From a virus, in the IMG/VR virus record IMGVR_UViG_3300036859_000023, positions 1 through 24,542 of that record: a stretch of 24,542 bases of DNA; one strand, 5' to 3'. The position numbers and the translations under genes are program-made. The notes beneath the pieces were generated by a model. It was not told where the DNA came from, searched no databases, and was given only the letters and a program-made list of their open reading frames with translations. Every line of letters begins with the position of its first letter. Position 1 is the first letter of the stretch. Below, piece after piece: positions 5,004 to 24,209 of the stretch.

Positions 5004-6419
5004 ATGCTGGCGTTTGTCGGCCCCTCTTACCAGCTCGATACCGGCACCCGCAAAGCCGGCATCCAGCGCGCTATCGGCCTGTACCTGTCGAAAGCGGAGC
5101 CCGGCAACCAGAAGGCCGAATGGTTCCTGAAGGACCAGCCCGGCCTGACGCTGTTCAAGGCCATTGGCGTCGAGATCCGCGGCATGTTCACGACCGCGGA
5201 CGGTAAGTGCTACGTGGCGGCCGGGAGTGCGGTCTATCGCATGCTGTCGGACGCCACGACAACCAACCTTGGGACGCTGCTGACCAGCACTGGGCCAGTG
5301 GAGTTCGCCGCCAACTCCGATCAGGTCGGGTTTGTCGATGGATCCTATGGCTACGTCATCACGTTGGCGACCGACACATTCGCGCGCATCACTTCGGCCA
5401 ACTTCTACGGCTCGAAGACCATCACAGTGATCGACGGCTACGGCCTTTTCATCCGCCCGGACACGCAGGAGTTCTACATCTCCGACCCGGACGACTTCAC
5501 GGCGCTCGATGCGCTGGCGTTCGCCGCTGCCGAGGGCGCGCCAGACCTCGCCACGGCTATCTTGGCCGACCACCGGCAAGCACGGGTTTTCGGCACCCAC
5601 ACGACCGAGGGCTGGTTCGACAGCGGAGACCCGGACTTTCCGTTCAGCCGCGACCCGTCTTCGTACGCGCAGATCGGCTGCAATTCGCCCTATACCGCTC
5701 GGCTCGTCTCCAACAGCGTGTGCTTCCTCGGCCAGAGCGAAGAGGGTGTTGGCGTGGTTTACATGGCGACCGGCAACACGATCGATCGCATCAGCACGCC
5801 GGCCGTCGAGCAGGCTCTGCAAGTGTCCACCGACCTGACGCTGGCGCGTGCATTCGTATACCTGGACGAGGGGCACCTTTTCTATGTGCTCAACGCGCCA
5901 GGGCTCGCGACAACCTGGGTCTTTGACGTTTCGACCCGCTCGTGGCATGAGAGGGCAGAGCAGGCGGCTAGTGGTGGATACGAGCCGTGGCGTCCGGTGT
6001 GCCACACGGTGGCCTTTGGCTACCACCTCGTCGGCGACGCGGACGGCAACATCTACCGCCTGAATCGCAGCGTCTACACCAACAACGGCGACCCGCTGCC
6101 GCGGCGCCGGATCAGCCCGCACAACGCCGCGCCGAACCTCGAGCGCCAGTTCTTCGGGCCGTTCGAGCTCGACGCGAGCGCGGGTGATGCGCCTTCCGGC
6201 GAGGTTCCTGTGGTGCAGATGCGCTACAGCAACGACGGTGGCAAGACGTGGAAAGTGTGGCGCGAGCGCGAACTGGGTCGCATCGGGGAACACGCCAAGC
6301 GCGTGCGTTGGATCGGCAACGGCAGCGCCTACGACCGCGTTTGGGACGTTCAGTTCAGCGGCGCCGCGCCGTTCTCGATCATCGGGGCTCGTTGTCCGGT
6401 AGGGGGCGGCGATGGGTGA
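5004..6419 (+). CDS. Tail hub / packaged DNA stabilisation protein, P22 gp10-like
   Basis: A 471-aa protein, almost exactly the length of P22 gp10 (472 aa), directly after the gp4-like gene. The N-terminus (FVGPSYQLDTGTRKAGIQR) and the repeated beta-strand blocks, such as MFTTADGKCYVAAG, DQVGFVDGSYGYVIT, YGLFIRPDTQEFYIS and VDGSAYD-like endings, fit a beta-propeller-type hub. NIYRLNR and SNDGGKTWKVWRE near the C-terminus are typical for the family. In P22 this protein joins the gp4 ring to the tail needle and tailspikes. The gene overlaps the next by 8 nt. In P22 the needle gp26 follows gp10, whereas here a tailspike-like protein follows. Confidence 0.88.
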   Translation: MLAFVGPSYQLDTGTRKAGIQRAIGLYLSKAEPGNQKAEWFLKDQPGLTLFKAIGVEIRGMFTTADGKCYVAAGSAVYRMLSDATTTNLGTLLTSTGPVEFAANSDQVGFVDGSYGYVITLATDTFARITSANFYGSKTITVIDGYGLFIRPDTQEFYISDPDDFTALDALAFAAAEGAPDLATAILADHRQARVFGTHTTEGWFDSGDPDFPFSRDPSSYAQIGCNSPYTARLVSNSVCFLGQSEEGVGVVYMATGNTIDRISTPAVEQALQVSTDLTLARAFVYLDEGHLFYVLNAPGLATTWVFDVSTRSWHERAEQAASGGYEPWRPVCHTVAFGYHLVGDADGNIYRLNRSVYTNNGDPLPRRRISPHNAAPNLERQFFGPFELDASAGDAPSGEVPVVQMRYSNDGGKTWKVWRERELGRIGEHAKRVRWIGNGSAYDRVWDVQFSGAAPFSIIGARCPVGGGDG

Positions 6420-8220
6420 CGCACTGAACCTGTTCGATCCGCGGCGCAGCGACTGGACCATTCCAGGCACCAGCAAACTGACGCGCGAGGCGCAGATCTT
6501 CCTGCGTGACTTGTGGTCCCGCACTGGAGGTGCGCTCGCGCCCAGCAACAACGACCTAGCGGCATCGCAGTTCGAGGATGCCGGCATCGAAGAGATCCGG
6601 GCTGACGTGTTCAGGCTGCGCGACGAGTTGGGGCAGATGCCTCCTGCCGTGCCAGTCGTCGAGAAGATCATTCGAGTGGGCAGCGTTGCCGAACTGCGCC
6701 AGATCACGCCGACTCACAAGATGGTCGCGTACCTGGAAGGCTACTACGCTGCAGGAGATGGCGGTGGCAGTGCGCTTGTGTGGATGCCTACCAGCACGAA
6801 CGCTGACAACGGCGGCACCGTGTTCCGGCCGGACAGTGCTCCGGCGAATGGACGGTGGGAGCGCGGCACCGCCGAGGCGAACTTTCGCCAGTTCGGTGTC
6901 ATGTCTCCGACGCCTGCGACCGCCAGAGCGCGGGCCAACGCCGCCATTGCATTCGCGTCGTCGCTGACGAAACGAGTAGTGCGCATTCCGGCCGACACGT
7001 ACACGTTTGACGACACCCTGTCGGCTCTGATCGGCGACAACTGGGCGGTGCTGGGCGACGGCATCAATGTCTCCACCCTCAAATGCACTGCTGACAAGCC
7101 GATTATTCAGATCGACGTTTCAGCATTCAATTCGTTCTTCGGCTTCATCGAAGGCGTGTCGTTCGAGGGTAGCAACTCCGGTGCGGACACGCTCAGCGCC
7201 GGCATCCAGGTCGTCGCCAGCTCATCCAGCGCGACTGGCCTCAAATACTGGACGGTCAACAAGTGCAGCTTTACCGGCGTGCGCCGCGGCATGCACATGC
7301 AGGACACCGGAAAGACATCGTTCGGCGGCTTCGCATCGATCACGTCGCACGGCTACCTGACCTTTATCAACAACGTTGTGACACCGACGCTGCCAGTCGA
7401 GATCGGATTCCATGCTGAAGGCGCCTTTGGTCTGCACTCCACCTTTTCCAACAACGCCTTTCGCGGTAGCGCGGCCGCCATGCGGCTTGGCACCGGCGAG
7501 GCGCTGGACAGCATCGGCGACATCGTAATCACTGGCAACCACTTCTTGAGCGGAGAGATTGGCCTGGACCTGCTCGGTCCGACGACCGCTGGCGCGTATA
7601 ACCAGAACTTCGTCATCACCGGAAACCAGTTCGACAACCTGATGGTGTTCACCGTCAGGGCATCGAACATCAAGAACTTCGACGCGTATCCGAACAACTC
7701 AACTTCCAGTGTCGGAATCTCACTGACCAGTTGCTCGGACTATTCGATCGAGGATCGTGGTGCGATGACATTTCAGGGCGCGACGCGGGCGTTTGAGATT
7801 TACGCGCAGATCGTTCTGAGCGACACCAATGGCACACGAATCGCGCAAGACCTTGCGTTTCGCCGCTCGGTGAACACCGGTTACATGAAGGTGGTCGGCG
7901 GCAACGTCGATGGGGCCGGCGCTGGGGTTTCGCTGTACGGAGGCGCCCACGCGACGTTAGCGAACCAAGCTTTTCAGGACGCATCACGACATCGATGGCG
8001 CTCGCAAGACGGATCGACCGCGTATCTCGACATCGATGGAACGAACGTCGATTGCAACTTGCCGGCAAGACTTCGCAGTTATGCAAAGGCATCGCTTCCA
8101 TCGGCATCGGCAAGCGCGCGCGCGCTTATCTATGTGTCAGACGAGGTGGGCGGCGCGACCGTAGCGTTCAGCGACGGGACGAATTGGCGCCGTGTCCAGG
8201 ACTACGCGGTTGTTTCGTGA
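6412..8220 (+). CDS. Tailspike-like protein with central beta-helix
   Basis: A 602-aa protein whose ATG lies inside the end of the hub gene behind a G-rich Shine-Dalgarno. Residues 1-95 are a helical N-terminal part (LTREAQIFLRDLWSR and further) likely to dock on the tail. EGYYAAGDGGGSALVW (about 104-119) and GTVFRPDS, then GRWER are typical of tailspike head-binding or neck regions. Residues about 165-520 carry the short-strand repeats of a right-handed parallel beta-helix (IPADTYTFDDTL, GVSFEGSNS, ITGNHF, ITGNQF). The C-terminus (IYVSDEVGGATVAFSDG, then NWRRV) is a common phage fibre ending. It probably binds or cleaves a surface glycan; catalytic residues cannot be assigned. It occupies the P22 needle position. 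Confidence 0.85.
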   Translation: MGDALNLFDPRRSDWTIPGTSKLTREAQIFLRDLWSRTGGALAPSNNDLAASQFEDAGIEEIRADVFRLRDELGQMPPAVPVVEKIIRVGSVAELRQITPTHKMVAYLEGYYAAGDGGGSALVWMPTSTNADNGGTVFRPDSAPANGRWERGTAEANFRQFGVMSPTPATARARANAAIAFASSLTKRVVRIPADTYTFDDTLSALIGDNWAVLGDGINVSTLKCTADKPIIQIDVSAFNSFFGFIEGVSFEGSNSGADTLSAGIQVVASSSSATGLKYWTVNKCSFTGVRRGMHMQDTGKTSFGGFASITSHGYLTFINNVVTPTLPVEIGFHAEGAFGLHSTFSNNAFRGSAAAMRLGTGEALDSIGDIVITGNHFLSGEIGLDLLGPTTAGAYNQNFVITGNQFDNLMVFTVRASNIKNFDAYPNNSTSSVGISLTSCSDYSIEDRGAMTFQGATRAFEIYAQIVLSDTNGTRIAQDLAFRRSVNTGYMKVVGGNVDGAGAGVSLYGGAHATLANQAFQDASRHRWRSQDGSTAYLDIDGTNVDCNLPARLRSYAKASLPSASASARALIYVSDEVGGATVAFSDGTNWRRVQDYAVVS

Positions 8221-8351: not shown

Positions 8352-8687
8352 ATGACCGTAACATCAAAGCCAATCATCACGTCCAAGTACGCCTCGATCA
8401 CCGAGACATCGGAGTACGAGGCCGATGCTGGCATGCGGACCATTCTGGACAAATTCACCGGCTACAACGGAAGCGCTGCTTCTGTTGTCGTGACGGTGAA
8501 ACTCGTGCCGAAGGCTGCGGCTGCCGGGGCGTCGCACATCGGCGTGAGCAGGGCGATCCAGGCCGGCGAGACCTACACATTCCCGGAGATCGTTGGGCAC
8601 GCGCTCGAGCCTGAGGGGTTCATTAGCGTGATCGCGGCGACGGCCAGCGCGGTCGTGATTCGCGCGAGTGGCAGAGAGATTACCTAG
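8352..8687 (+). CDS. Small virion-type beta protein of unknown role
   Basis: A 111-aa protein starting at ATG 8352. Its pattern (TSEYEADAGMRTILDKFTG, then ASVVVTVKLVP, then IQAGETYTFPEIVGH, then GFISVIAATASAVVIRASG) matches a small all-beta protein often found in podophage and prophage structural modules near tail genes. No enzymatic motif is visible. It lies between the cysteine-rich protein and the cupin; its TAG stop overlaps the GTG of the cupin gene by one base. It may decorate or bind the tail, an inference from context. The family is recognised only loosely. Confidence 0.75.
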   Translation: MTVTSKPIITSKYASITETSEYEADAGMRTILDKFTGYNGSAASVVVTVKLVPKAAAAGASHIGVSRAIQAGETYTFPEIVGHALEPEGFISVIAATASAVVIRASGREIT

Positions 8688-9142
8688 TGAGCATCATTCC
8701 GCTTCCAGAAGGTGGGGCCGCGATCTACCGCGAGGCGCCGACACGCGAGGACATCCAGCGCCTGGAGCGGGTGATCCGCGAGATGCCGCAAGTCGATATC
8801 CCGACGCATCACACCTTCGGCCCAGGCTTCTACGCGCGCACGATCGAAATTCCAGCGGGGGCGACCTTGACCGGGAAGGTGCACGCGACCGAACACATCT
8901 TCATCGTCAGCAAAGGCGAGCTCGCGGTGGCGACGGAAGACGGCACAAGAACCTTGCGCGCACCGGTTCAGATGGTCTGCCGACCTGGGCTGAAGCGCGC
9001 CGGCTACGCGCTGACCGACGTGGTGTGCACGAACATTCACATCACCGAAGAAACCGACCTTGCGCGGCTCGAAGCCGAGTTGATCGAGGCGGAATCGCTT
9101 GAGGCTCCGAAGAAAGACGAGGTGTTGCCATGTCATGGATAG
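8687..9142 (+). CDS. Cupin-fold protein in the tail module
   Basis: A 151-aa protein starting at GTG 8687 behind a GAGAG-type site. The core (residues about 45-120) is a single cupin domain: IPAGATLTGKVHATEHIFIV and the SKGELAVATEDG turn form the first motif, with His66, Glu69 and His70 as candidate metal ligands. RAPVQMVCRPGLKRAGYA and NIHIT (His118) form the second. The C-terminus (LARLEAELIEAESLEA) is a charged helix. Cupins range from sugar-modifying enzymes to pure binding folds. Phage cupin-like proteins near tail genes are known, but no role can be read from the sequence. It overlaps the next gene by 13 nt. Confidence 0.75.
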   Translation: MSIIPLPEGGAAIYREAPTREDIQRLERVIREMPQVDIPTHHTFGPGFYARTIEIPAGATLTGKVHATEHIFIVSKGELAVATEDGTRTLRAPVQMVCRPGLKRAGYALTDVVCTNIHITEETDLARLEAELIEAESLEAPKKDEVLPCHG

Positions 9143-13354: not shown

Positions 13355-13418
13355 GACCATCCAGGCACCAGATCCGGCGGCGATCAGGACCAGCCGGACG
13401 AGTTCTTCGCTGTTCATA

Positions 13419-13570: not shown

Positions 13571-15355
13571 ATGCCGTCACCGGTCGCAATACCCCGCATT
13601 CGGTTCAACGACGCCGCGGGTGCGCCGCTGGCGCTCGGCTGGCTTGACACCTACGCAGCGGGCGGCACCACGCCGCTGGCGACCTACAGCGAGTCAACCG
13701 GCACGACGCCCAACGCGAACCCGATCCAGCTCGACGCCAACGGCGAGGCGGTGATCTGGCTCGGCGACTCGGGCGCCTACGACTTCCGGCTGCGCAACTC
13801 GGCGCTCGTCGTCCAGCCCGTGCCCGGGCTCGCGGTGCAGAGCATGGCGCGCGTGGCGAGTGCGGCGGGAACCACCACGCTGGCGAGCCTTGCCAGCACG
13901 GCAACCGCGGCAGTCGGTGCGGCTCTGGTGGGATGGCTCGATACGCTGGCCTACGCCGCGAATACCGTGGGCTGGGCACTCAGGAGCCTTGCTGGCGGCA
14001 ACTCCATCCTGCGCTACATCCCGATCGCCGAGTGGCCTGCAATCGCCGCAGGAACCACGACCACGGACCTGACGAGCTACATCGCGTCGGCGCTGACGGC
14101 GAAGAACGACATCTACGTTCCGAGCGGCACGTTCATCGGCGAATGGGACTTGAGCGGCAAGCGTGGCAAGACGATCAGATGTGCGGGTCGCGATGTCACG
14201 ATCCTGAAGAACGTCGATGCCACCCCAGTCTTCACGCTGAACAACACGGCGAGCGATTGCAAGTCGCACCACTTCGAAGGCTTCAAGGTCCAGAACCGCG
14301 ACGAGGCGACGTACCCGACTTGCGATGCCTTCCTGATCAGCGGCAACGCGACGAACGAGAACGACTTCCACACCTTCAAGGAAGTCGATGTTGTCGACAT
14401 GCGATACGGCTGGAATATCTCCAGCCGGATGATCTGGAGCAGTTGGGAAGACTGTCATGCGATGTCGTGCGTGGACGGTTTCCACTGCGACACCACGCAG
14501 AACGTGTCTGTGTTGTCGCTCCGCCAATGCCGGTTCGGGGCAAACACCGGCTACGGGATGTACCTGAACAAGGCTTCAGGCGATCCGTTCTTCGGCTGGA
14601 CGCTGGACAACGTCACCAACGAGAAGAACGCGTTGAACGGCCTGCGCGTCTCGGGTGCGGCATCCGGCATCGCAGGCTTCACGATCATCGGCGGGCACTA
14701 CGAAGAGAACACGACGACGGTAGCGGCCGGCGCGACGGCCCCGCGCAAGGCGAACATCTTCATCGACGCTGCGCAGTGCATCGGGCTGAACATCATTGGC
14801 GTCCCACTGCTTGGAACGCCGCTCGCGACAGCGCTTGACTGGGGCGTGTATATCTCGTCCACGACTTGCAGCGGCTACATCGGCCCGTGCCGCCCAGGAA
14901 CCTTCACGCTCGGCTTCGTCAGCAACACCAGCGGCGTTGTAGTCGTTGCTCCACAGGAGGGCGGCACAACGACGCTCAGCGGTGCGGGGGCGTACACCTT
15001 GGGCCGAGAGTCGTTCACCAGCTTCACCGGGACACTGACTGGCTGCACGACGAGTCCGACAGGAACCATCCAGTACGTGGCTCAACTGCATCAAGTGACG
15101 CTCGATATCCCAATCATCGAGGCGACAAGCAATACCACTGCAGCCACGATTACCGGTATGCCGGCGGCAATCCGTCCGACAGCTACGAAGACATTGCAAT
15201 GCCTGGTCAAGGATAACGGAACCGTTGTGCACGGCCTCGCGCAGATCGACAGCACCGGGACCATCACCCTCCAGAACGGCATTGGTGGTGGCGCGTTCAC
15301 GGGCTCCGGCACGAAGGGCGTTCGAGCCCAGCAGATCACCTACGTGCTGGACTGA
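13571..15355 (+). CDS. Tailspike / tail fibre with head-binding N-domain and beta-helix
   Basis: A 594-aa protein. Residues 1-90 (PRIRFNDAAGAPLALG, then TYAAGGTTPLATYSES, then NPIQLDANGEAVIWLG) form a widespread phage head-binding or attachment domain. Residues about 95-165 are Ala/Thr-rich. Residues about 170-450 look like a pectate-lyase-type right-handed beta-helix (IYVPSGTFIGEWDL, HHFEGFKVQNRDE, DGFHCDTTQNVSV, TIIGGHYEENT). The C-terminal 130 residues are a beta-rich ending. It likely recognises or degrades host surface polysaccharide. The only plausible start is ATG 13571, since an in-frame TAA lies at 13547. There is no Shine-Dalgarno, because the promoter -10 occupies that space. The portal ATG follows its stop by one base. 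Confidence 0.87.
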   Translation: MPSPVAIPRIRFNDAAGAPLALGWLDTYAAGGTTPLATYSESTGTTPNANPIQLDANGEAVIWLGDSGAYDFRLRNSALVVQPVPGLAVQSMARVASAAGTTTLASLASTATAAVGAALVGWLDTLAYAANTVGWALRSLAGGNSILRYIPIAEWPAIAAGTTTTDLTSYIASALTAKNDIYVPSGTFIGEWDLSGKRGKTIRCAGRDVTILKNVDATPVFTLNNTASDCKSHHFEGFKVQNRDEATYPTCDAFLISGNATNENDFHTFKEVDVVDMRYGWNISSRMIWSSWEDCHAMSCVDGFHCDTTQNVSVLSLRQCRFGANTGYGMYLNKASGDPFFGWTLDNVTNEKNALNGLRVSGAASGIAGFTIIGGHYEENTTTVAAGATAPRKANIFIDAAQCIGLNIIGVPLLGTPLATALDWGVYISSTTCSGYIGPCRPGTFTLGFVSNTSGVVVVAPQEGGTTTLSGAGAYTLGRESFTSFTGTLTGCTTSPTGTIQYVAQLHQVTLDIPIIEATSNTTAATITGMPAAIRPTATKTLQCLVKDNGTVVHGLAQIDSTGTITLQNGIGGGAFTGSGTKGVRAQQITYVLD

Positions 15356-15356
15356 G

Positions 15357-17516
15357 ATGAAGCAAGACCGCCTCCAGCGCGCCAAGGAACGATACGCCGA
15401 CGCGTGCGAGGCGATGCACGAGCAGCACGCGCGCATCCGCGAGGACTTGCGCTTCTCGAACCCGGCCAAGCCGGAGCAGTGGACAGATCAGGCAAGAGAG
15501 TTGCGCGGCAACACGCGGCCGATGATGACGTTCAATCATTGCCCGAAGTTCATCCGCCAGGTGGTGAACGACGGTCGGGCTTCTGTTCCTTCGTTCCAGG
15601 TCACGCCGGCAGATTCGTTCGCTCACGCCAAGGCCGCAGAGATCATCAACGGTCGCATTCGACACATCGAGTACGTGAGCAAGGCGCGCGTGGCCTACAC
15701 GACGGCTCTAGGACATGCCGCTGACTGCGGCCTGGGCTGGATTCGTGTCGAGCCGCAAATCCTGAACCCGGAAACGAACCAGCAAGAGCCTCGAATCATG
15801 CGGGTGCATGACCCGCTCTCGTGTGTGCTCGACGTGGATTCGACAGAGCCGGATGGGTGCGATGCCGAGTGGGGGTTCGTGCTGTCGCCGATGAGCCGCG
15901 CGAAGTTCAAGCGCCAATGGCCGAAGGCGATGCCGTCGCAGGGTTGGACGGACGAATTTCGCCTGTGGACCTACGGCGATACGGTGCTCGTGGCCGACTA
16001 CTACGAGATCGTCCGCAAGAAGACGAACAAGATTCTGATCCGAACGCCGGATGGTGAGACGGTTTCGCTGACCGAAGACGAGTATTGGGAAGTCGCGAAG
16101 GCCATCGGCATCAATCCCGAAGTCGTCAGCCAATTCACGATGGAAGATAAGACCGTCATCGGCTCGAAGATGACAGGCGCTGAGGAACTCGAGGAAACCG
16201 AATTCCCATCGTCCTATATCCCGCTGGTGCCTGTGATCGGCGATGAAACGTGGGTGGATGGCAAGCGCTATCTGTGCGGCCTGACCCGTCAACTAATGGA
16301 CGGTCAGCGCATGCACAACGCCGAGATGTCGTCGTACACCGAGAGCATCCTCGCGCAGCCGAAAGCGCCGTTTGCCGTGCCGATGCGCGCCATTGAAGGC
16401 CATGAAGCGGCGTGGAAGAAGCTCAACACCGGCAACCCGGCCTTTTTGCCGTACAACGACACGGACGAAGATGGTCCCGTTGCGGCGCCGACTCGCCTGA
16501 GCCCGCCGCAGATTCCATCTGCCTTTGCAAATGGCGCCATGATGGCGATCGGCGAAATGGAAGGCTCGGTTGGCATGTACAAGGCCAGCTTCGGCCAGCA
16601 GTCCAACGCCGTCAGCGGCAGAGCCAAGCAGGCCGACCGCCGAGAGAGCGACACCGGAACCTTTCACTATCACGACAACCTCGCTCGAGCGGTCGAGCAG
16701 ATGGGCCGCATCGTGGTGGACATGGACCGGCGGCTCACGGACACCGCGCGCAGCGTGCGCACGATGAGCGAAGACGGCACCGCCGGCATGGTGCGCTATG
16801 ACCCGCAGATGGCAGGTGCCGTGCAGATGAAGGGCCGCACGCAGGAAGTGCAGGCGATCAATCCGCGCATCGGCACATACGACCTACGCGTGAAGGTCGG
16901 GCCGTCTTTCCTCACACAGAACGAAGAGACGGCCACCGAGCTCGGCGAGATGTTCCAGGGCGCTCCGCAGTTGCTGCCGGTTCTCGGCCCGACCTGGGTG
17001 CGCCTGAAGGGCATCCCTGGTGCCGAGAAGATCGCCAAGTTGCTGGTCTCGATGGCGCCCCCCGAGGTGCAGAAGATCGAAGCGGAAGGTGACGAAGAGA
17101 CGCCGATCCCGCCGCAGGCAAAGGCCGCCATCGAGCAGCTGGAAACGCAAGTGCAGGAACTCGCGCAGGCGCTCGAAGCTGCCGCGGCAGAAGCCGAGAA
17201 GACCGGCATCGAGGCAAGCAAGGCGAAGACCGAGAGCGACAAGGCCGAGGCCGAGATGCTCACACGCGGCTACGAGGCTGTGACGGAGCGCATCAAGGTG
17301 CTCGCTCCTGGCCTTGCACCGGAGCAGATTTTCGCGCTCGCTCAGATGACGTTCGGGCAAGGCATGGCGGTTCCGCCTGTCAGCGATGAGCCGCCCATCA
17401 CAGGCATTGAGCCGCCACAAGTTCCCATGGACCAATCCGGTCCCGCCATGGACGCGGGCGAATTCGCGCAGCCAACCCAAACCCTCGAACCACTAGAGAC
17501 CGGAGAACTCCCATGA
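15357..17516 (+). CDS. Portal protein, P22 gp1 family
   Basis: A 719-aa protein, nearly the length of P22 portal (725 aa). The N-terminus (RAKERYADACEAMHEQHARI, then REDLRFSNP, then RPMMTFNHCPKFIRQVVND) is the signature of the P22 portal family, followed by YTTALGHAADCGLGWIRV and the portal core. Residues about 585-645 (AIEQLETQVQELAQALEAA and on) form a long coiled coil corresponding to the C-terminal barrel that projects into the P22 capsid. The last 45 residues are Pro/Glu-rich. The dodecameric portal is the DNA entry and exit channel. Start 15357 is chosen because it follows the tailspike TGA directly; an in-frame upstream extension would overlap the tailspike. The portal is far from terminase and coat, an unusual order for this family. 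Confidence 0.92.
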   Translation: MKQDRLQRAKERYADACEAMHEQHARIREDLRFSNPAKPEQWTDQARELRGNTRPMMTFNHCPKFIRQVVNDGRASVPSFQVTPADSFAHAKAAEIINGRIRHIEYVSKARVAYTTALGHAADCGLGWIRVEPQILNPETNQQEPRIMRVHDPLSCVLDVDSTEPDGCDAEWGFVLSPMSRAKFKRQWPKAMPSQGWTDEFRLWTYGDTVLVADYYEIVRKKTNKILIRTPDGETVSLTEDEYWEVAKAIGINPEVVSQFTMEDKTVIGSKMTGAEELEETEFPSSYIPLVPVIGDETWVDGKRYLCGLTRQLMDGQRMHNAEMSSYTESILAQPKAPFAVPMRAIEGHEAAWKKLNTGNPAFLPYNDTDEDGPVAAPTRLSPPQIPSAFANGAMMAIGEMEGSVGMYKASFGQQSNAVSGRAKQADRRESDTGTFHYHDNLARAVEQMGRIVVDMDRRLTDTARSVRTMSEDGTAGMVRYDPQMAGAVQMKGRTQEVQAINPRIGTYDLRVKVGPSFLTQNEETATELGEMFQGAPQLLPVLGPTWVRLKGIPGAEKIAKLLVSMAPPEVQKIEAEGDEETPIPPQAKAAIEQLETQVQELAQALEAAAAEAEKTGIEASKAKTESDKAEAEMLTRGYEAVTERIKVLAPGLAPEQIFALAQMTFGQGMAVPPVSDEPPITGIEPPQVPMDQSGPAMDAGEFAQPTQTLEPLETGELP

Positions 17517-18007
17517 TCACCAGAGAACCCATCGCCGCTGGCGAGCTCGCCACCCGCACCGGCCGTCAAGGCGTCGTCTATGTCGATGACGCAACCGGCA
17601 TGGCCTACGTGTGGGACGGCACGAACAGCAAGTTTCAGCCGCTGAACGATCGGGCGAAACACCGCACGGGTGCCGCCGTTTCCGGCACCGGCACCATCAC
17701 TGCAGCGCAACTCGTCACCGGCGCGCTCGTGTTCAGCGGCGGCGCCGGCTCGCTGACCCTGCCGACCGGAACGCTACTCGGCGCTGCTCTCGGCGCGGCG
17801 GCCGGCACCGTCTTCGACTTCACCGTCACCAACGTGGCCGGCAGCGGCATTTGCACGATTGTCGCGAGCACGAACATCGTCGCCGGCCCGGCCGTCATCA
17901 CGGGCGGCGCAACCCTGACCGTGGCCAACAGCGCGACCCAAGGCATTGGCCTCTTCCGCATCGTCTTCTTCAGCGCGACGGCTGCGGTGCTGTTCCGCAT
18001 CGGCTAA
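17513..18007 (+). CDS. Small beta-rich structural-type protein after portal
   Basis: A 164-aa protein whose ATG overlaps the portal stop as ATGA. Residues 1-48 (REPIAAGELATRTGRQGVVY, then MAYVWDGTNSKFQPL) resemble short phage collar or fibre-attachment segments. Residues about 55-164 are Gly/Ala/Thr/Val-rich beta strands (LTLPTGTLLGAALGAAAGTV, NVAGSGICTIVAS, GLFRIVFFS), like phage decoration domains. No signal peptide is visible, unlike the next four genes. It may be a virion decoration or neck protein; this is inference from composition and coupling to the portal. Confidence 0.65.
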   Translation: MITREPIAAGELATRTGRQGVVYVDDATGMAYVWDGTNSKFQPLNDRAKHRTGAAVSGTGTITAAQLVTGALVFSGGAGSLTLPTGTLLGAALGAAAGTVFDFTVTNVAGSGICTIVASTNIVAGPAVITGGATLTVANSATQGIGLFRIVFFSATAAVLFRIG

Positions 18008-18030: not shown

Positions 18031-20118
18031 ATGAAGAAGTTCCTCCAAGCAGTCGGCGTTTGGGTCGCCTTGGCGTTCGCGTGCTCGCTTGCGTCAGCGC
18101 AGACCACATCGAAGAACATCACGGCGATCAACTCGACGCCGACTGCGACGTGTTCGGCGAACTCTTGCGTTGTCTTCGACATGCTTGGCAAGGGCGCCGC
18201 AGCGGTCCAAGTGACCGGCACCTACACGGCATCGGGTGGCCTGTCTGCACAGGTAACGGCGGACGGGACAACGTGGGTCACGCTCGGCGCGACCACGACA
18301 TTCAAGCGTCTATCCACAGGCGTGACCACGGCGACCATCACGTCAGGCCAGCAGGACGTGTACCAACTGTCATCGGACTGCACGGGCGCCTTTGCCTGCC
18401 GGATCACGGCACTAGGCGCGGTCACAGGAACGGCCACGATCACGCCGGTTACGTCGATTGCATCGATCGGCGGCGGGAGTGGCGCTGCGGCCGGCCTGAC
18501 CGATGCAGAGCTCCGCGCGACTCCTGTCCCCGTGAGTGGCACGGTGACGGCTGCCGGTGTGGCACAAGGTTCAACCACCTCCGGCCAGACTGGGGGATTG
18601 ACGCAGTGCGCGGTGACGACGGCCGCCCCGACCTACACCACCGGTCAGACCAGCCCCGTCAGTTGCGACACGAGCGGCAATGTGCGGATCACGGGTGCCG
18701 GCGGTGGTGGCACCTCTTCGACGTTCGGCGCTGCTGTTCCGAGCGCTGGCACGGCTGCTGGTCTGAGCGACGGCACCAACATGGTGTTGCCGCGGGCATT
18801 TGACGCCGACTCAGGCGCTGGCACGCAAACTGTCGCTGGCGTCAGCCTGCGCAAGGCTGCTTCCGGCGGTTCCGTCGAGGCTGGCACCTCGAGCGATCCG
18901 CTGCGCACCGATCCCACTGGCACGACCGCGCAGCCGGCGACCCAGTCCGGCGTCTGGACAGCCCGTGTGCAGGACGGCTCCGGCAACGCGATCACGAGCG
19001 CTGCACGCGGAGCCGAGCGGGCCGTGTCGGTGCAGATCGTCGACGGCAGCGGCGCGCAGGTCACATCATTCGGCGGCAGCGGCGGCACCGCCTCGAACTT
19101 TGGCAGCGCGGTGCCAGCCACAGGAACCGCGGCCGGCGTGAGTGATGGCACCAACATGGTTGCCCCGCGATCGTTCGATGCCGACAGCGGCGCTGGCACG
19201 CAAAATGTGCTCGGCATCAGCTTGCGCAAGGCCGCCAGCGGCGGCAGCGTGGAAGCCGGCACATCGACCGACCCGCTGCGCACCGACCCGACTGGCACCA
19301 CGACGCAGCCGGTGAGCGGCACGGTGAGCATCACGGCCAACAGCGCGGTCAACGTCGCGCAGATGAACGGCGTCGCCACGTCCATGGGCGCCGGCGTCAA
19401 CGGCACCGGTGTGCAGCGCGTCACCATCGCCACGGACGACGCCATGAGCACGGCGATCGTCGGCGTGGCGCACGACGCGGCCGGCGGAACCGTCAACCCG
19501 GCGCTGGTAGGTTGCTACGCGAGCGCTGCGGCACCGACCGACGTGAGCGCCGATACGGATGCTACGCGGGCCTGGTGCCTGCGCAATGGCTCGCGCGCGG
19601 TCACGCCCACCTATGCCGGTGTGCTGCCGTCCACCGGCAACGGCACGGCCGGCACCGGCACGCCGCGCGGCGCGCTCGCGAGCGACAACAGCGCCATTGC
19701 CAACTGGGGTCACGGCGCCGTGGGTTCAGCCGTCCCGAGCAACGCCACGTTCATGGGCGGGCGCACCGGCGCGAACACGCACCCGGTCCCGGTGCCAGAC
19801 ACCACGGCGAAGATCGATGTTTCGACGGCGACCACTGTCGAGATCGTGGCGCTGAGCGCGAGCCAGAAGATCTGGGTCGGCGCGTTCTCGCTCCTTGCTG
19901 GCGGCACCGGCAACATCAAGTTCGTCTACGGCACAGGCACGAACTGCGCCACCGGCATCACAGACTTGACTGGCAACTACAACCTGACGGCGCAGAACGG
20001 CGTGGCCCAAGGCAGCGGCCTGGGCGCCGTACTGGTGGTGCCATCCGGCAATGCTTTGTGCGTGACCACGAGTGCGGCCGTGCAGATGAGCGGCCATGTG
20101 ACCTACACGAAGTTCTGA
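18031..20118 (+). CDS. Large exported repeat protein with virion-like domains
   Basis: A 695-aa protein. Residues 1-24 (MKKFLQAVGVWVALAFACSL, then ASAQTT) are a classical Sec signal peptide with an Ala-Ser-Ala cleavage site. The mature part starts with a beta domain (AVQVTGTYTASGGLSAQVTA, then DGTTWVTLG) of the kind found in phage minor structural proteins. Short SGTVT linkers follow, then two copies of a 75-residue unit (228-302 and 353-427; 62 of 75 residues identical), and a C-terminal beta domain at about 570-695 (VEIVALSASQKIWVGAFSL, then NALCVTTSAAVQMSGHVTY) also common in phage proteins. Composition is Gly/Thr/Ala/Ser-rich with few charges, as in adhesins. Export plus phage-type domains is a contradiction worth noting: a periplasmic protein cannot easily join a virion assembled in the cytoplasm. 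Confidence 0.8.
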   Translation: MKKFLQAVGVWVALAFACSLASAQTTSKNITAINSTPTATCSANSCVVFDMLGKGAAAVQVTGTYTASGGLSAQVTADGTTWVTLGATTTFKRLSTGVTTATITSGQQDVYQLSSDCTGAFACRITALGAVTGTATITPVTSIASIGGGSGAAAGLTDAELRATPVPVSGTVTAAGVAQGSTTSGQTGGLTQCAVTTAAPTYTTGQTSPVSCDTSGNVRITGAGGGGTSSTFGAAVPSAGTAAGLSDGTNMVLPRAFDADSGAGTQTVAGVSLRKAASGGSVEAGTSSDPLRTDPTGTTAQPATQSGVWTARVQDGSGNAITSAARGAERAVSVQIVDGSGAQVTSFGGSGGTASNFGSAVPATGTAAGVSDGTNMVAPRSFDADSGAGTQNVLGISLRKAASGGSVEAGTSTDPLRTDPTGTTTQPVSGTVSITANSAVNVAQMNGVATSMGAGVNGTGVQRVTIATDDAMSTAIVGVAHDAAGGTVNPALVGCYASAAAPTDVSADTDATRAWCLRNGSRAVTPTYAGVLPSTGNGTAGTGTPRGALASDNSAIANWGHGAVGSAVPSNATFMGGRTGANTHPVPVPDTTAKIDVSTATTVEIVALSASQKIWVGAFSLLAGGTGNIKFVYGTGTNCATGITDLTGNYNLTAQNGVAQGSGLGAVLVVPSGNALCVTTSAAVQMSGHVTYTKF
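18712..18936 (+). repeat. 75-codon repeat unit, copy 1
   Basis: It encodes residues 228-302 of the exported repeat protein, beginning TSSTFGAAVP and containing SDGTNMV, FDADSGAGTQ, SLRKAASGGSVEAGTS and DPLRTDPTGTT. It aligns without gaps to copy 2, starting 375 nt downstream, at 62 of 75 residues by my count. Confidence 0.85.
19087..19311 (+). repeat. 75-codon repeat unit, copy 2
   Basis: It encodes residues 353-427 of the exported repeat protein, beginning TASNFGSAVP. Many synonymous sites differ from copy 1, including serine codons switched between TCN and AGC, while the protein is conserved. That implies an old duplication kept under protein-level constraint rather than a recent DNA repeat. 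Confidence 0.85.
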
Positions 20119-20122
20119 CGCC

Positions 20123-20965
20123 ATGCGCCGCATCACTGCATACCTGCTCGCGCTGCTGCTGGCGTTCAGCAGCAGCGTCACGCACAGCGGCTCGCTGACG
20201 CTCATTGGCGCCGGCAGGGCGGCAGCCGCTGCCGGCGGCGCTGGCGGTGCGCTTACGGTGCAGGCTGTCGGCACCGTTGCGAGTGCCACAGGCGGCAGCG
20301 GCTCGACGGCACTCGCGGTCACCGTACCAGCGAGCGCGGCATCCGGTGAGCGCCTCGTCTGTTTCGGCGCAATCAGGTCGTCGGTTGACACGGCGCCGAC
20401 GATGCCGGGTGGCTGGACCCTGATCGGCAGCGTGTCGGGCGGTGGCGGTTCCTGGGGCAACGGGACCGGACCGTCGCGGGTATTCGCCTTCAGCAAGACA
20501 TCAGACGGCACCGAAGGCGGAAGCAGCGTCGATCTCACCAACGACCGCGGCACCGACAGCAATGCAAAGACTTGGGCTGTCATTGTCCGCGTCAGTAAGA
20601 CCAATTCGAACTGGGTTGCCGAGGCGCAAGTCAACGGCGAGGACACAACCGGTGGCACCGCGTATAGCGCAGCAGGCGGCTCACTTGAGCAACTGCAGAA
20701 CGACTTGGTTTGGACGGTGACCGGCTGGAACATCGATGAAATTGCGAGCCCGGACACAGAGACCCTCACATCGTCTGGCGTGACATATGGGACGCTGACT
20801 CAGCGCGCCCAAGCATCTGGATTCACGGGCAACCAGGGCGGCTTCAATCTCTATTCGCGGCCAGTGACCACGGGCGCGACCTCTGCGCCGACGTTCGCAT
20901 TCACCTTCACGGGCGCGACGCCGACCGGCGTGACGATGTTCGTGCGTATGCGGGACTCGACATGA
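20123..20965 (+). CDS. Exported beta-sandwich-like protein
   Basis: A 280-aa protein. The N-terminus (MRRITAYLLALLLAFSSSV) is a Sec-type signal with Arg2/Arg3 and a strong hydrophobic core; the cleavage site near residues 20-24 is less clear than in its neighbours. The mature chain (ALTVQAVGTVASATGGSG, then ALAVTVPASAASGERLVC, then PGGWTLIGSV) matches a beta-sandwich pattern seen in phage and bacterial surface proteins: alternating Ser/Thr strands, a GERL segment leading to a P-GGW-L turn. The C-terminus (APTFAFTFTGATPTGVTM) is also beta. No catalytic motif is seen. It lies 4 nt after the large repeat protein and overlaps the next gene as ATGA. Confidence 0.75.
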   Translation: MRRITAYLLALLLAFSSSVTHSGSLTLIGAGRAAAAAGGAGGALTVQAVGTVASATGGSGSTALAVTVPASAASGERLVCFGAIRSSVDTAPTMPGGWTLIGSVSGGGGSWGNGTGPSRVFAFSKTSDGTEGGSSVDLTNDRGTDSNAKTWAVIVRVSKTNSNWVAEAQVNGEDTTGGTAYSAAGGSLEQLQNDLVWTVTGWNIDEIASPDTETLTSSGVTYGTLTQRAQASGFTGNQGGFNLYSRPVTTGATSAPTFAFTFTGATPTGVTMFVRMRDST

Positions 20966-21351
20966 CGCAGCGCCTGCGCCTGTTCCTGCTGGCGCTGGCG
21001 CTCGCGTTCAGCGGGTTCGCACCTGACGCGAGCGCTGGCAGGCTCGTCAGCCGTGGATCATCTGGCGGCGAGTCGTTCCCGGACATCACGGCGCCCGGTG
21101 GCGCAACCTCGTTCGCCGTCACTTGGAACGCGGAACCCGGCGCTGACGGGTACTTGGTCTATTTCGCGACCGCGACCCAGACGTTCCCTGACTTCAGCCT
21201 GTACACCTATCGCTACAAGGTGACCGGCGGCGCCACCGTCACCAAGACCGTGAGCAGCATCGCGTCGAACACGTACTACGTGCGGGTAGCTGCCTACATC
21301 GGAACGACCGTGCGCGAGTTGTCGCACGAAATCGTGAAGGTATCGTCATGA
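20962..21351 (+). CDS. Exported fibronectin type III-like single-domain protein
   Basis: A 129-aa protein. Residues 1-25 (MTQRLRLFLLALALAFSGF, then APDASAG) are a Sec signal peptide with a D-A-S-A cleavage region. The mature part (residues about 44-128) is one fibronectin type III-like domain: FAVTWNAEPGADGYLVYFAT is the canonical W..A.gAdgY.vy strand pair, and TYYVRVAAYIGTTVRELS corresponds to the Y.vrV.Ay F-G region. Such domains serve as spacers or binding modules in extracellular and virion proteins. A stand-alone exported copy suggests a surface-binding factor or a partner of the neighbouring exported proteins. It is joined to both neighbours by ATGA overlaps. Confidence 0.8.
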   Translation: MTQRLRLFLLALALAFSGFAPDASAGRLVSRGSSGGESFPDITAPGGATSFAVTWNAEPGADGYLVYFATATQTFPDFSLYTYRYKVTGGATVTKTVSSIASNTYYVRVAAYIGTTVRELSHEIVKVSS

Positions 21352-23054
21352 AGAAACTGCTCGCGCTCATTCCGCTGCTCCTTGCACTTCTGGGCTTCGC
21401 GTCTGACGCGAGCGCGCAGACCACGCGCAACTACTGCAAGTGCGACACCGGCGCGCAGGGCGGCTGTGTTGCCACGTCACCGACGTTTCCAGCCGAAGCA
21501 ACGGTCGAAAACGCAGTGGCAGGCGACCAATTCCTGTTTTGCGAAGGCGGGTTCTGGCAACAAGCGGGCTCGTTCAGCGGGCTCATCAGTGTCACGGCCT
21601 GCCGGCCGTTATGTACGTCCCGCATTGTGTTCGGCAAGTACACGGCGGGCTGGGGTGGCGGTGGCGTGAAGCCGAAGTTCCGTTGCACGGGCGCGTCCTG
21701 CTTCGTCTTCCGCTTCGGGAGTTTCGCCGAGACCACCCTCGACGGTGGCTACACGGTCCAAGACCTAGACCTTGGTGGCAACGATACCGGCGGCAGTGGC
21801 GTATTCATCGACGGCAACATCCAATACATCACGGTCCAGCGCGTCGACTTCTCCAAGTTCGCAGAGGTTGCCGTCGATTTGCAGGAGTCGCCGCCCGCCG
21901 ACACATCAAAGCGCATCTACTTCATCGAGGTTCTCGACAGCACATTCACTGACAGCGGTGGCTTGGCCTGTATCGGCGGCAGCGCCGAAGACCTTCTAGT
22001 CTCTGGCAACACGTTTTACCGCTGTGGCGGCTGCCCTGGCACATGCCATACCCTGTACCTCGGCGGCGAGGGTAAGCGGATGGTGTTGGTGGGCAACACG
22101 ATGTCGGCGGCTGGCGGCTATGGCACTGGCAATCAAGTGTGCAGGTCCGGCAACATCTCGATTCGCGGCAAGCACGATCAAATCCGCGTTGAGAACAACA
22201 CGATCGACAATTCTGCAGCCGAGCCGACATCCACCTGTGGCGGCATCCAGATCAAGCCCGCCTATTGCTTCGAGTGCTCCGGCGACACGACCAACGCCGC
22301 GATTTGGGACATCGAATATCTGCGGCGCACGATCGTGCGCGGCAATACAGTCATAGACACGTACATCACGCCGATTGAGGTTGGCGCGGCGCGGTACGTC
22401 GTCGTCGAGAACAATGTCGTCGTGCGCACGCGCGCGCACTCGAATCCGTCATTCGAGTACCCGAGTGCGGCGGTGCAGACGAATCCGCCGCGCACCTACG
22501 CTGACGAGACCGACATTGGCGGCACGTTCAGGAACAACACCTGTTTCATGGCCGCGGCCGGTGATGGCGCTACCTGCTTCAACTTCGACGGCGCGGCCGG
22601 GCACGGAACCGGGGTGACGGTCGCTAACAACGTGGCCTACGCGAGCGGCCCGTTCACCGGCACGCAAAGCTGCTTCCGGCATGGCGCTCTGAGCAGCTAC
22701 ACGGCCTGGAACAACAACACCTGCTACGGCATGGACCGCTGGAGCAGTACCGCATCCAGCGGTGGCGGGTATGCCGACCATGCTGCCGCGCACGCCGCCG
22801 GCTTTGATACATGGAGCGCAGCTGGTGGCCTCGCTGACAACGATCCTCTGCTGACCACGCCGACGAGCGGCAACAGTTGGGACGCAAGCATTTCCAGCGA
22901 TTCGAGCCCAGCGCACAACAACGGCAGCAACACCTACAAGGCCCGCTTTGACAAGTTGGGCTGCCTTCGTGACTCGACGCCATCGATCGGCGCGTTTGAG
23001 CGCGGTGGCACACCGTGCACGACAACGACGCGCTCGCCGCAGTGGGTGCGGTGA
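21348..23054 (+). CDS. Exported cysteine-rich right-handed beta-helix protein
   Basis: A 568-aa protein. Residues 1-24 (MKKLLALIPLLLALLGF, then ASDASAQ) are a clear Sec signal peptide. The mature protein is a right-handed parallel beta-helix, shown by recurring rung motifs: VSGNTFYR, LVGNTMSA, VENNTIDN, VRGNTVID, VENNVVVR, FRNNTCFM, VANNVAYA and WNNNTCYG. The C-terminus DSTPSIGAFE is the closing signature of many secreted bacterial beta-helix proteins. About 22 cysteines are present (CKC, CRPLC, CGGCPGTC, CFEC among them), far more than in the tailspike at 6412, implying disulfides formed in the periplasm. It could be a polysaccharide lyase, depolymerase or adhesin; no catalytic triad can be assigned by eye. 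The stop overlaps the next ATG as TGATG. Confidence 0.85.
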   Translation: MKKLLALIPLLLALLGFASDASAQTTRNYCKCDTGAQGGCVATSPTFPAEATVENAVAGDQFLFCEGGFWQQAGSFSGLISVTACRPLCTSRIVFGKYTAGWGGGGVKPKFRCTGASCFVFRFGSFAETTLDGGYTVQDLDLGGNDTGGSGVFIDGNIQYITVQRVDFSKFAEVAVDLQESPPADTSKRIYFIEVLDSTFTDSGGLACIGGSAEDLLVSGNTFYRCGGCPGTCHTLYLGGEGKRMVLVGNTMSAAGGYGTGNQVCRSGNISIRGKHDQIRVENNTIDNSAAEPTSTCGGIQIKPAYCFECSGDTTNAAIWDIEYLRRTIVRGNTVIDTYITPIEVGAARYVVVENNVVVRTRAHSNPSFEYPSAAVQTNPPRTYADETDIGGTFRNNTCFMAAAGDGATCFNFDGAAGHGTGVTVANNVAYASGPFTGTQSCFRHGALSSYTAWNNNTCYGMDRWSSTASSGGGYADHAAAHAAGFDTWSAAGGLADNDPLLTTPTSGNSWDASISSDSSPAHNNGSNTYKARFDKLGCLRDSTPSIGAFERGGTPCTTTTRSPQWVR

Positions 23055-23407
23055 TGGAACCAGCAGCGTGGACCGCGCTCACGGATGGCTGTACGTGCGA
23101 TGAGCTGCACGCCGTCACTACCGCCTACCAGGTCGCTGCGGGCCATGGCTTCGTGAGTCAAACGGCATCACCCAAGGAGGCAGCCGCGACCCTCGTGCGC
23201 TGTGAGGCCCGCATTGCGGTCAAGAAGTGCCGCGACAAGGGGCTGACTCCTTTCCAACTCGAAGCCGTGGCGATCGAGGCCGTGCTTGACCTGATCGCCC
23301 GTTCCATTCGCCAGCAAAACAAGAAGGACCAACCAATGAGCACCAGCAACAACCAACTGCCCACCGGCGCTGCGGCGACGACGGGCGTCTGCGCGAGGGA
23401 GCGATGA
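23054..23407 (+). CDS. Unknown protein opening the lysis cassette
   Basis: A 117-aa protein starting at ATG 23054 (TGATG junction), preferred over an in-frame GTG 39 nt upstream inside the previous gene. Residues 1-90 are helical (ARIAVKKCRDKGLTPFQLEA, then VAIEAVLDLIARSIRQQN) with cysteines at 13, 15, 50 and 59. Residues 92-117 are a polar, probably disordered tail. There is no signal peptide or membrane segment. It overlaps the holin as ATGA. Position suggests a lysis regulator or simply a co-expressed late protein; I do not recognise the family. Confidence 0.65.
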   Translation: MEPAAWTALTDGCTCDELHAVTTAYQVAAGHGFVSQTASPKEAAATLVRCEARIAVKKCRDKGLTPFQLEAVAIEAVLDLIARSIRQQNKKDQPMSTSNNQLPTGAAATTGVCARER

Positions 23408-23595
23408 ACGAAGAAACCAGGACCGCCGCGCTCAAGGTAGGCGCCGCCGTGGCAGGCGCTGGCGCTTCTTGGACCCTGAGCGACTTCGCCGCTCTCGTGG
23501 CGATCATCTCCGGCGCGTTGGCGGGCCTGTACGCGCTGCTGCAGATGTACGTGCTGTGGCGCGACAAGATCAAGCAGCAAAACGACGCGCCATGA
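23404..23595 (+). CDS. Holin
   Basis: A 63-aa membrane protein directly upstream of the endolysin, with a strong site (GAGGGAG) before ATG 23404. Residues 28-52 (FAALVAIISGALAGLYALLQ and following) are a strong transmembrane helix. Residues 9-22 (ALKVGAAVAGAGAS) are a weaker Gly/Ala-rich hydrophobic stretch, so one or two spans are possible. The C-terminus (WRDKIKQQNDAP) is polar with basic residues, fitting a cytoplasmic tail. This size and topology suit small phage holins that permeabilise the inner membrane and time lysis. The stop overlaps the endolysin ATG as ATGA. Confidence 0.8.
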   Translation: MNEETRTAALKVGAAVAGAGASWTLSDFAALVAIISGALAGLYALLQMYVLWRDKIKQQNDAP

Positions 23596-24209
23596 ACCGC
23601 ATCACCGAAGTGCGGTGGCTCGAGGTTCTGACGTTCTGCGGAGTTGCCGCGCGCACCGCGCTTGAGTGGGCGCCCATCTTCGAGCGCCACGTCCAGCCGG
23701 AGCATTTTTCGCAGGGCACGCGCGAGATCGATGACTTCGTGGGCCAGATGCTGCACGAGACGCTACGGCTCGAGCACCTCGAAGAGAACCTGAACTACAG
23801 CGCCAAGCGGCTGACCGAGGTGTGGCCGGGCAGGTTCCCAACGATCGAGGATGCCGAGCCCTACGCGAACAACCCGGAAGCGCTTGCCGAGAAGTGCTAC
23901 GGCGGGCGCATGGGCAACAACGATCCTGGGGACGGGTACGACTACCGCGGGCGTGGTGTTCCCATGGTGACCGGCAAAGACAACTACACGCTGCTCGAGC
24001 AGTTGCTCGGCTTGCCGCTGGTGGCGTACCCGGATCTTCTGTGCGATCCGGACACGGCGCTGCGCTGCGGCGTCGCTTGGTGGGAGAAGAAGGTGCCAGA
24101 CAGCGCGATCGACAGCCTTGAGCGCGTGACGCGCGCTGTTCAGGGCGCACAGCTCGGCCTGAAAGACCGCCGCGATTTGACCGGCAAGGCGAAAGAGGCG
24201 CTGGCGTGA
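23592..24209 (+). CDS. GH19-family endolysin (chitinase-like muramidase)
   Basis: A 205-aa protein starting at ATG 23592. The GH19 signature is clear: MLHETLRLEHLEENLNYSAK, with candidate catalytic Glu56 (HE) and Glu65 nine residues later, the same spacing as in known phage GH19 endolysins. NNPEALAEKCYGGRMGN, then GDGYDYRGRG and TGKDNY follow. A VPM triplet stands where many relatives have a hydrophobic-Gln pair (GRGLIQ type). It cleaves the glycan backbone of peptidoglycan. There is no signal peptide, so release depends on the holin. The first 40 residues precede the usual core. It overlaps the next gene as GTGA. No separate Rz/Rz1 pair is visible before the window ends. Confidence 0.92.
   Translation: MNRITEVRWLEVLTFCGVAARTALEWAPIFERHVQPEHFSQGTREIDDFVGQMLHETLRLEHLEENLNYSAKRLTEVWPGRFPTIEDAEPYANNPEALAEKCYGGRMGNNDPGDGYDYRGRGVPMVTGKDNYTLLEQLLGLPLVAYPDLLCDPDTALRCGVAWWEKKVPDSAIDSLERVTRAVQGAQLGLKDRRDLTGKAKEALA

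Follow-up and report, generated by a model that had tools for sequence, protein, structure and literature searches.

Putative late cassette of exported, adhesin-like proteins in a podovirus-like phage and its counterparts in unrelated phages

Four adjoining genes with signal peptides

Phages assemble their particles within the cell, and an export label on neighbouring late genes of a phage is therefore odd. Why, then, should four consecutive genes of a viral record, IMGVR_UViG_3300036859_000023 (24,542 nucleotides [nt] and ~25 genes; here called the window), all begin with what look like Sec signal peptides? Profile searches of the window identified genes for terminase, scaffold, P22-type coat, head closure, ejection proteins, and a P22-like portal, and we therefore take it to be a fragment of a podovirus-like phage. 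The four genes, here A to D, lie in the order portal, 164-amino-acid (aa) gene, A, B, C, D, 117-aa gene, holin-like gene, endolysin gene. From the portal gene onwards, genes either overlap or are separated by ≤23 nt. A and B are 4 nt apart, and B-C and C-D share 4-nt overlaps, each reading ATGA; the coordinates, frames, and spacing reported in a first-pass annotation, which had singled out these genes, were all right. No promoter-like site was found between the portal and lysis genes.

To score signal peptides, we used a home-made scorer of n-, h-, and c-regions as a stand-in for SignalP. Eight textbook signal peptides scored 7.5–10.2, and 33 of 2130 spurious minus-strand open reading frames (ORFs) were flagged, a false-positive rate of 1.5%. 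Genes were called with a home-made caller prone to start errors, and the scorer can be misled by the choice of start. The four N-termini scored 7.8–9.8, in line with the Sec signals first proposed for all of them. A, C, and D showed clear features of Sec export and signal peptidase I cleavage (basic n-region, hydrophobic core of 8–15 residues, A-x-A-like site; scores 9.0–9.8), and the A-S-A endings previously noted in three of the four proteins are theirs: MKKFLQAVGVWVALAFACSLASA before Q in A, MTQRLRLFLLALALAFSGFAPDASA before G in C (ending PDASA), and MKKLLALIPLLLALLGFASDASA before Q in D (ending SDASA). The N-terminus of B, MRRITAYLLALLLAFSSSVTHSGS, has the charge and the hydrophobic core, and its signal is the weakest of the four (7.8) because it has no good cleavage site. 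Per 2000 shuffled N-termini, the real score was reached by 10 for A, 287 for B, none for C, and 1 for D. The single relative found for B, which adjoins an A homologue at another locus (L008:4294-4583), carries a canonical site, MKRITAHLLPLLLAFASTIAPA before Q.

With the same scorer, none of the remaining ~21 genes in the window had a signal at its called start, and a gene at 8352 was flagged solely from an ATG inside it, where the score was poor. The probability that four signal genes among 25 would be adjacent by chance is 0.0017. A lipobox (Cys at +1) was sought in A to D and not found. Ala at −1 together with Gln at +1 recurs among unrelated proteins.

A putatively disulfide-locked domain in A and the mature parts of B, C, and D

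Beyond its signal, A comprises an N-terminal domain holding Cys41/46 and Cys117/123, two repeats that bear out its first description as a repeat protein, and a C-terminal domain that we call AC. The only invariant positions among 63 aligned AC domains, which reach down to ~30% identity, are G47, T48, G49, C52, T54, and C90. Both cysteines, which in A are Cys639 (19945-19947) and Cys677 (20059-20061), are thus kept in 63/63 domains. AC belongs to no family in Pfam or PHROGs, and its model had no match in the PDB at E ≤ 0.001; weak matches to Ena pilin and to lectins were not used. Proteins that AC did match are small uncharacterised ones from phages, a few named virion proteins, and, at their C-terminal tips, collagen-repeat and Mtd-like fibre proteins. 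As judged from sequence and predicted fold, AC is an unnamed, disulfide-locked, adhesin-like family domain.

The model of B, made from a single sequence, was too poor for use (pLDDT 41.5), and the beta-sandwich earlier ascribed to B could not be confirmed. The fibronectin type III domain of C and the beta-helix of D survive as weak matches, both below curated cut-offs (that of D just under), and the tail of D gave a weak choice-of-anchor-Q match. When relatives of B, C, and D were sought among viral contigs and phage records, almost none turned up, B having the one described above. A to D matched no fibre or tailspike family in Pfam, PHROGs, or NCBIfam. Their mature parts have an adhesin- or fibre-like look. 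Coordinates of all features are collected in Table 1.

Table 1. Cassette genes, parts of A, and other features of the window
Feature	Coordinates	Strand	Description	Basis
Gene A	18031..20118	+	695 aa; signal, N-terminal domain, two repeats, C-terminal AC domain	ORF and scans
Signal peptide of A	18031..18099	+		Scorer, 9.05
A repeat copy 1	18709..18930	+	~residues 227-300	Self-match at 125-aa offset
A repeat copy 2	19084..19305	+	~residues 352-425	Self-match at 125-aa offset
AC domain of A	19792..20118	+	~105 aa, predicted beta-sandwich	63-sequence alignment; AlphaFold2 pLDDT 88.6
Gene B	20123..20965	+	280 aa; signal ~20123-20188, weak cleavage site	ORF and scorer
Gene C	20962..21351	+	129 aa; signal 20962-21036; weak FN3-like mature part	FN3, E 0.012
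Gene D	21348..23054	+	568 aa; signal 21348-21416; weak right-handed beta-helix; 22 Cys	PF13229, E 3e-5
Large protein	6412..8220	+	No signal; tailspike reading from position	Signal scan and profile search
Short tail-fibre family protein	8687..9142	+	No signal	phrog_12032, E 1.6e-36
Second tailspike-like protein	13571..15355	+	No signal; weak beta-helix	Profile and signal scans
P22-like portal protein	15357..17516	+	No signal	PF16510, E 2.8e-138
Protein between portal and A	17513..18007	+	164 aa; no signal, no family	Profile and signal scans
Holin-like protein	23404..23595	+		phrog_1350, E 0.002
Endolysin	23592..24209	+		phrog_181, E 1.1e-49

The protein between portal and A (17513-18007) has the look of a beta-rich virion decoration protein.

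Signalled neighbours of AC genes in unrelated phages

With A as the query, tblastn found counterparts of its final ~100 residues in a podovirus from Manatee Spring and in two Synechococcus phages, and a search with an alignment of this shared domain gave 80 viral and 11 genome AC loci. The start was visible in 74 AC genes, and 65 of these scored as signalled; among the nine that did not, at least two (L056 and L064) look like signals on inspection. Across 78 distinct AC loci, a set that contains related sequences, signalled neighbours stood at +1 in 48%, at +2 in 33%, and at −1 in 26%, against a background of 13/249 genes (5%) more than six places from AC, and runs of signalled genes reached up to six. 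At 80 control loci with a P22-like portal and no AC, 6 of 739 genes were flagged, without a run of two or more. Among 12 annotated relatives the count was 2/234, both adjacent in Acetobacter phage phiAX1. These controls and the enrichment beside AC therefore indicate an accessory cassette common to unrelated phages, not a trait of this phage's lineage.

The layout recurred in the complete podovirus ctLwi270 (MW202554, from Manatee Spring), in which four signalled ORFs in a row come after the portal: an A homologue, a small ORF, a ConA-like lectin, and a beta-helix protein. The window shares this arrangement of four signalled genes after the portal, but the companions are not sequence-homologous, and the ctLwi270 record does not mention a cassette. 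Both the AC protein of the Synechococcus phages and the product of the gene after it (786 aa) are signalled; in phage Yong-M4-211 (OM868079), which infects Synechococcus PCC 7002, the AC gene lies at 34782-35198. Novosphingobium sp. FSW06-99 carries a three-gene exported cassette twice (L092 7179-11742 and L190 1090-3325), each time directly following endolysin-like and holin-like genes.

Most exported neighbours matched no family, and two large-family Pfam scans of the long ones gave mostly none. The matches obtained were to beta-helix, arabinofuranosidase, apiosidase, polysaccharide lyase 14, and Ig-type domains, with one neighbour each matching Peptidase_S74 and the GP4 fibre I family. When 143 exported neighbours and comparison proteins were compared all against all, most were singletons, B, C, and D included. 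By sequence comparison, then, the layout recurs while the companions change fast. The first-pass suggestion of a dedicated module holds insofar as the four genes form one; their exact composition is not conserved, and what recurs elsewhere is an AC protein with one to five exported neighbours.

These genomes also bear on the possibility that A to D are host-surface morons expressed from a prophage; production during lysogeny had been allowed for by the first-pass annotation. AC cassettes do occur in Novosphingobium FSW06-99 and in an integrase-bearing Synechococcus phage, and Acidobacteriota chromosomes contain a small stand-alone AC cluster. In the window, however, the late genes are packed, with holin and endolysin adjoining and no promoter-like site from portal to lysis genes. 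Because of this packing and the missing promoter-like site, late expression is likelier than lysogenic expression, and we regard lysogenic conversion as improbable.

Several further observations were made at these loci. The Acidobacteriota cluster, from metagenome-assembled genomes (L086-L089 and L091; also L191-L196), comprises five conserved chromosomal genes of 96 aa, 126-157 aa, ~192 aa, 158-182 aa (the signalled AC gene), and 112 aa. By eye, its neighbours are purC-like, DUF1501-like, and IS3-like, with no obvious terminase or portal, and a strong stand-alone AC match was present in 6/257 genomes of one order. The cluster may have come from a phage and been domesticated. Signalled proteins of 141-235 aa form a second family that recurs beside AC, at positions −1 to −3 in 14 loci (for example, L010:6682-7248 and L014:1452-2033). 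In MW202554 (L002), a signalled ORF at 12797-13384 is missing from the annotation, and the beta-helix gene at 14172-15770, labelled endopolygalacturonase, has an annotated start (14211) that hides its signal. The two consecutive signalled genes of phiAX1 (L103 14437-17331) include a GH66-type enzyme, a glucanotransferase whose start is annotated 35 codons late (15511, not 15406), again hiding the signal. One candidate portal relative with a cassette (L110) was rejected, its genes being scaffold and coat protein with mis-called starts and the coat falsely flagged. A PF23140 search of 12 AC genomes gave no match, yet the control gave no match either.

Cysteine parity

Exported proteins with disulfide bonds are known to favour even numbers of cysteines. 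Mature AC proteins had even counts in 49 of 50 cases, and signalled neighbours in 70/82, compared with 180/296 for unsignalled genes. Restricting the comparison to proteins with ≥4 Cys, one per family, gave 45/53 for signalled neighbours against 49/84 (58%) for unsignalled genes. Where the signal itself held an odd number of cysteines, its removal left an even mature number in 31/33. A has 11, of which one lies inside the signal to leave 10, and D has 22; B has one and C none. At the family level, the invariant pair and the parity are indirect evidence consistent with cleavage and folding in an oxidising compartment, and A and D fit.

We weighed whether the flagged segments could instead be hydrophobic N-termini of ordinary virion proteins, or products of wrong starts. 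The use of a stand-in scorer leaves room for this, and start choice can mislead, as the falsely flagged L110 coat protein illustrates. Against it are the 1.5% false-positive rate, the invariant cysteine pair, the even counts restored by signal removal, and the −1 Ala/+1 Gln recurring in unrelated proteins, and we consider it very improbable. Taken together, the signal peptides, the even cysteine numbers of the mature parts, and the invariant pair indicate that A to D are very probably exported and cleaved.

Free effectors or virion appendages

What might such proteins do? The first-pass annotation had suggested free depolymerases and adhesins that clear or coat host surfaces, block superinfection, or attach to virions after lysis, all of them hypothetical roles. 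We propose, with about equal confidence for and against, that A to D form a late, accessory, mobile cassette of Sec-exported and mostly disulfide-stabilised adhesin- or fibre-like proteins, released free at lysis onto envelope glycans. The sequences show the signals, the invariant cysteine pair, the parity, the late position with tight coupling to portal and lysis genes, and mobility; the rest of the scheme is inferred. A to D would be made late in infection and exported across the inner membrane via host Sec, to fold in the periplasm with the help of the host disulfide machinery and accumulate there. Once holin, endolysin, and spanin opened the cell, they would be freed as unattached proteins, binding or breaking down the envelope or capsule glycans of the dying cell as well as those of neighbouring cells. 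Progeny would then not be trapped on debris, or the path to the next host would be cleared. The cassette moves between unrelated phages, with the AC knob as the common element.

The carbohydrate-active domains predicted among exported neighbours and the signalled GH66-type enzyme of phiAX1 speak for this free release. The window phage also has its own unsignalled tailspike-like and short-fibre genes, so A to D need not be its receptor-binding proteins. Several points weigh on the other side: the cleavage site of B is weak; parity is silent on B and C, given their one and no Cys; A, B, and C matched no catalytic family, and D none of the named enzyme families; and fibre-like folds at a tail-fibre/lysis position would also fit virion appendages.

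This last point leads to the main rival, in which A to D are exported for the sake of their disulfides, fold in the periplasm, and join finished virions after lysis as late fibres or decorations. In extracts, T4 and P22 fibres and tailspikes can join particles. The AC beta-sandwich matches small phage proteins, some of them named virion proteins, and collagen-repeat/Mtd-like fibre C-termini; the Peptidase_S74 and GP4 fibre I matches among exported neighbours and a gene position typical for tail-fibre genes point the same way. However, the phage already encodes unsignalled tailspike-like and short-fibre proteins, and what unrelated phages share is AC, at the C-terminus, rather than an N-terminal virion anchor particular to a lineage. 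In addition, a motif scan placed S74-like sequence only in an unsignalled gene and did not recover the exported carrier of the Peptidase_S74 match. On balance we think it rather unlikely that A to D are such appendages. The corresponding assembly route, in which fibre-like appendages would be exported, disulfide-bonded in the periplasm, and joined to virions only at lysis, a two-compartment assembly whose finished particle contains Sec-processed proteins, is likewise doubtful.

Relation to known systems and significance

P22 gp9-type tailspikes and fibres, including beta-helix depolymerases, resemble A to D in beta-helix, repeats, adhesin-like tips, and late-region position; tail fibres and tailspikes assemble in the cytoplasm without Sec signals, whereas A to D are signalled and A and D are Cys-rich. 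Phage T5 Llp and similar receptor-blocking lipoproteins are encoded by phages, exported by the host, and act at the envelope. They share export with A to D, which have no lipobox, form a multi-gene cassette, and are far larger. Spanins (Rz/Rz1) are also exported late proteins beside lysis genes, but A to D lack spanin features and are far larger and adhesin-like. Phage phiAX1 (LC644973) is like the window in being a P22-like portal phage with two consecutive signalled late genes, one annotated as a cycloisomaltooligosaccharide glucanotransferase; it has no AC domain, and its authors do not describe export. A limited search of the open-access literature, covering signal peptides of phages, secretion, and the proteomics of virions, found no description of such a cassette and no proteomics bearing on the presence of its proteins in virions, in keeping with the initial remark that no four-gene system of this kind was known.

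To our knowledge, single exported phage proteins are known already, and phage-encoded exported proteins acting at the envelope are the known kind to which this cassette would belong. What appears new is a recurring multi-gene late cassette of large, probably exported, adhesin-like proteins, with an unnamed disulfide-locked domain, in unrelated phages of diderm hosts. If the proteins are bound to virions, the rule that particles of tailed phages form in the cytoplasm only would be broken. If the proteins are free, as we favour, each lysis would release a class of extracellular effector encoded by the phage.

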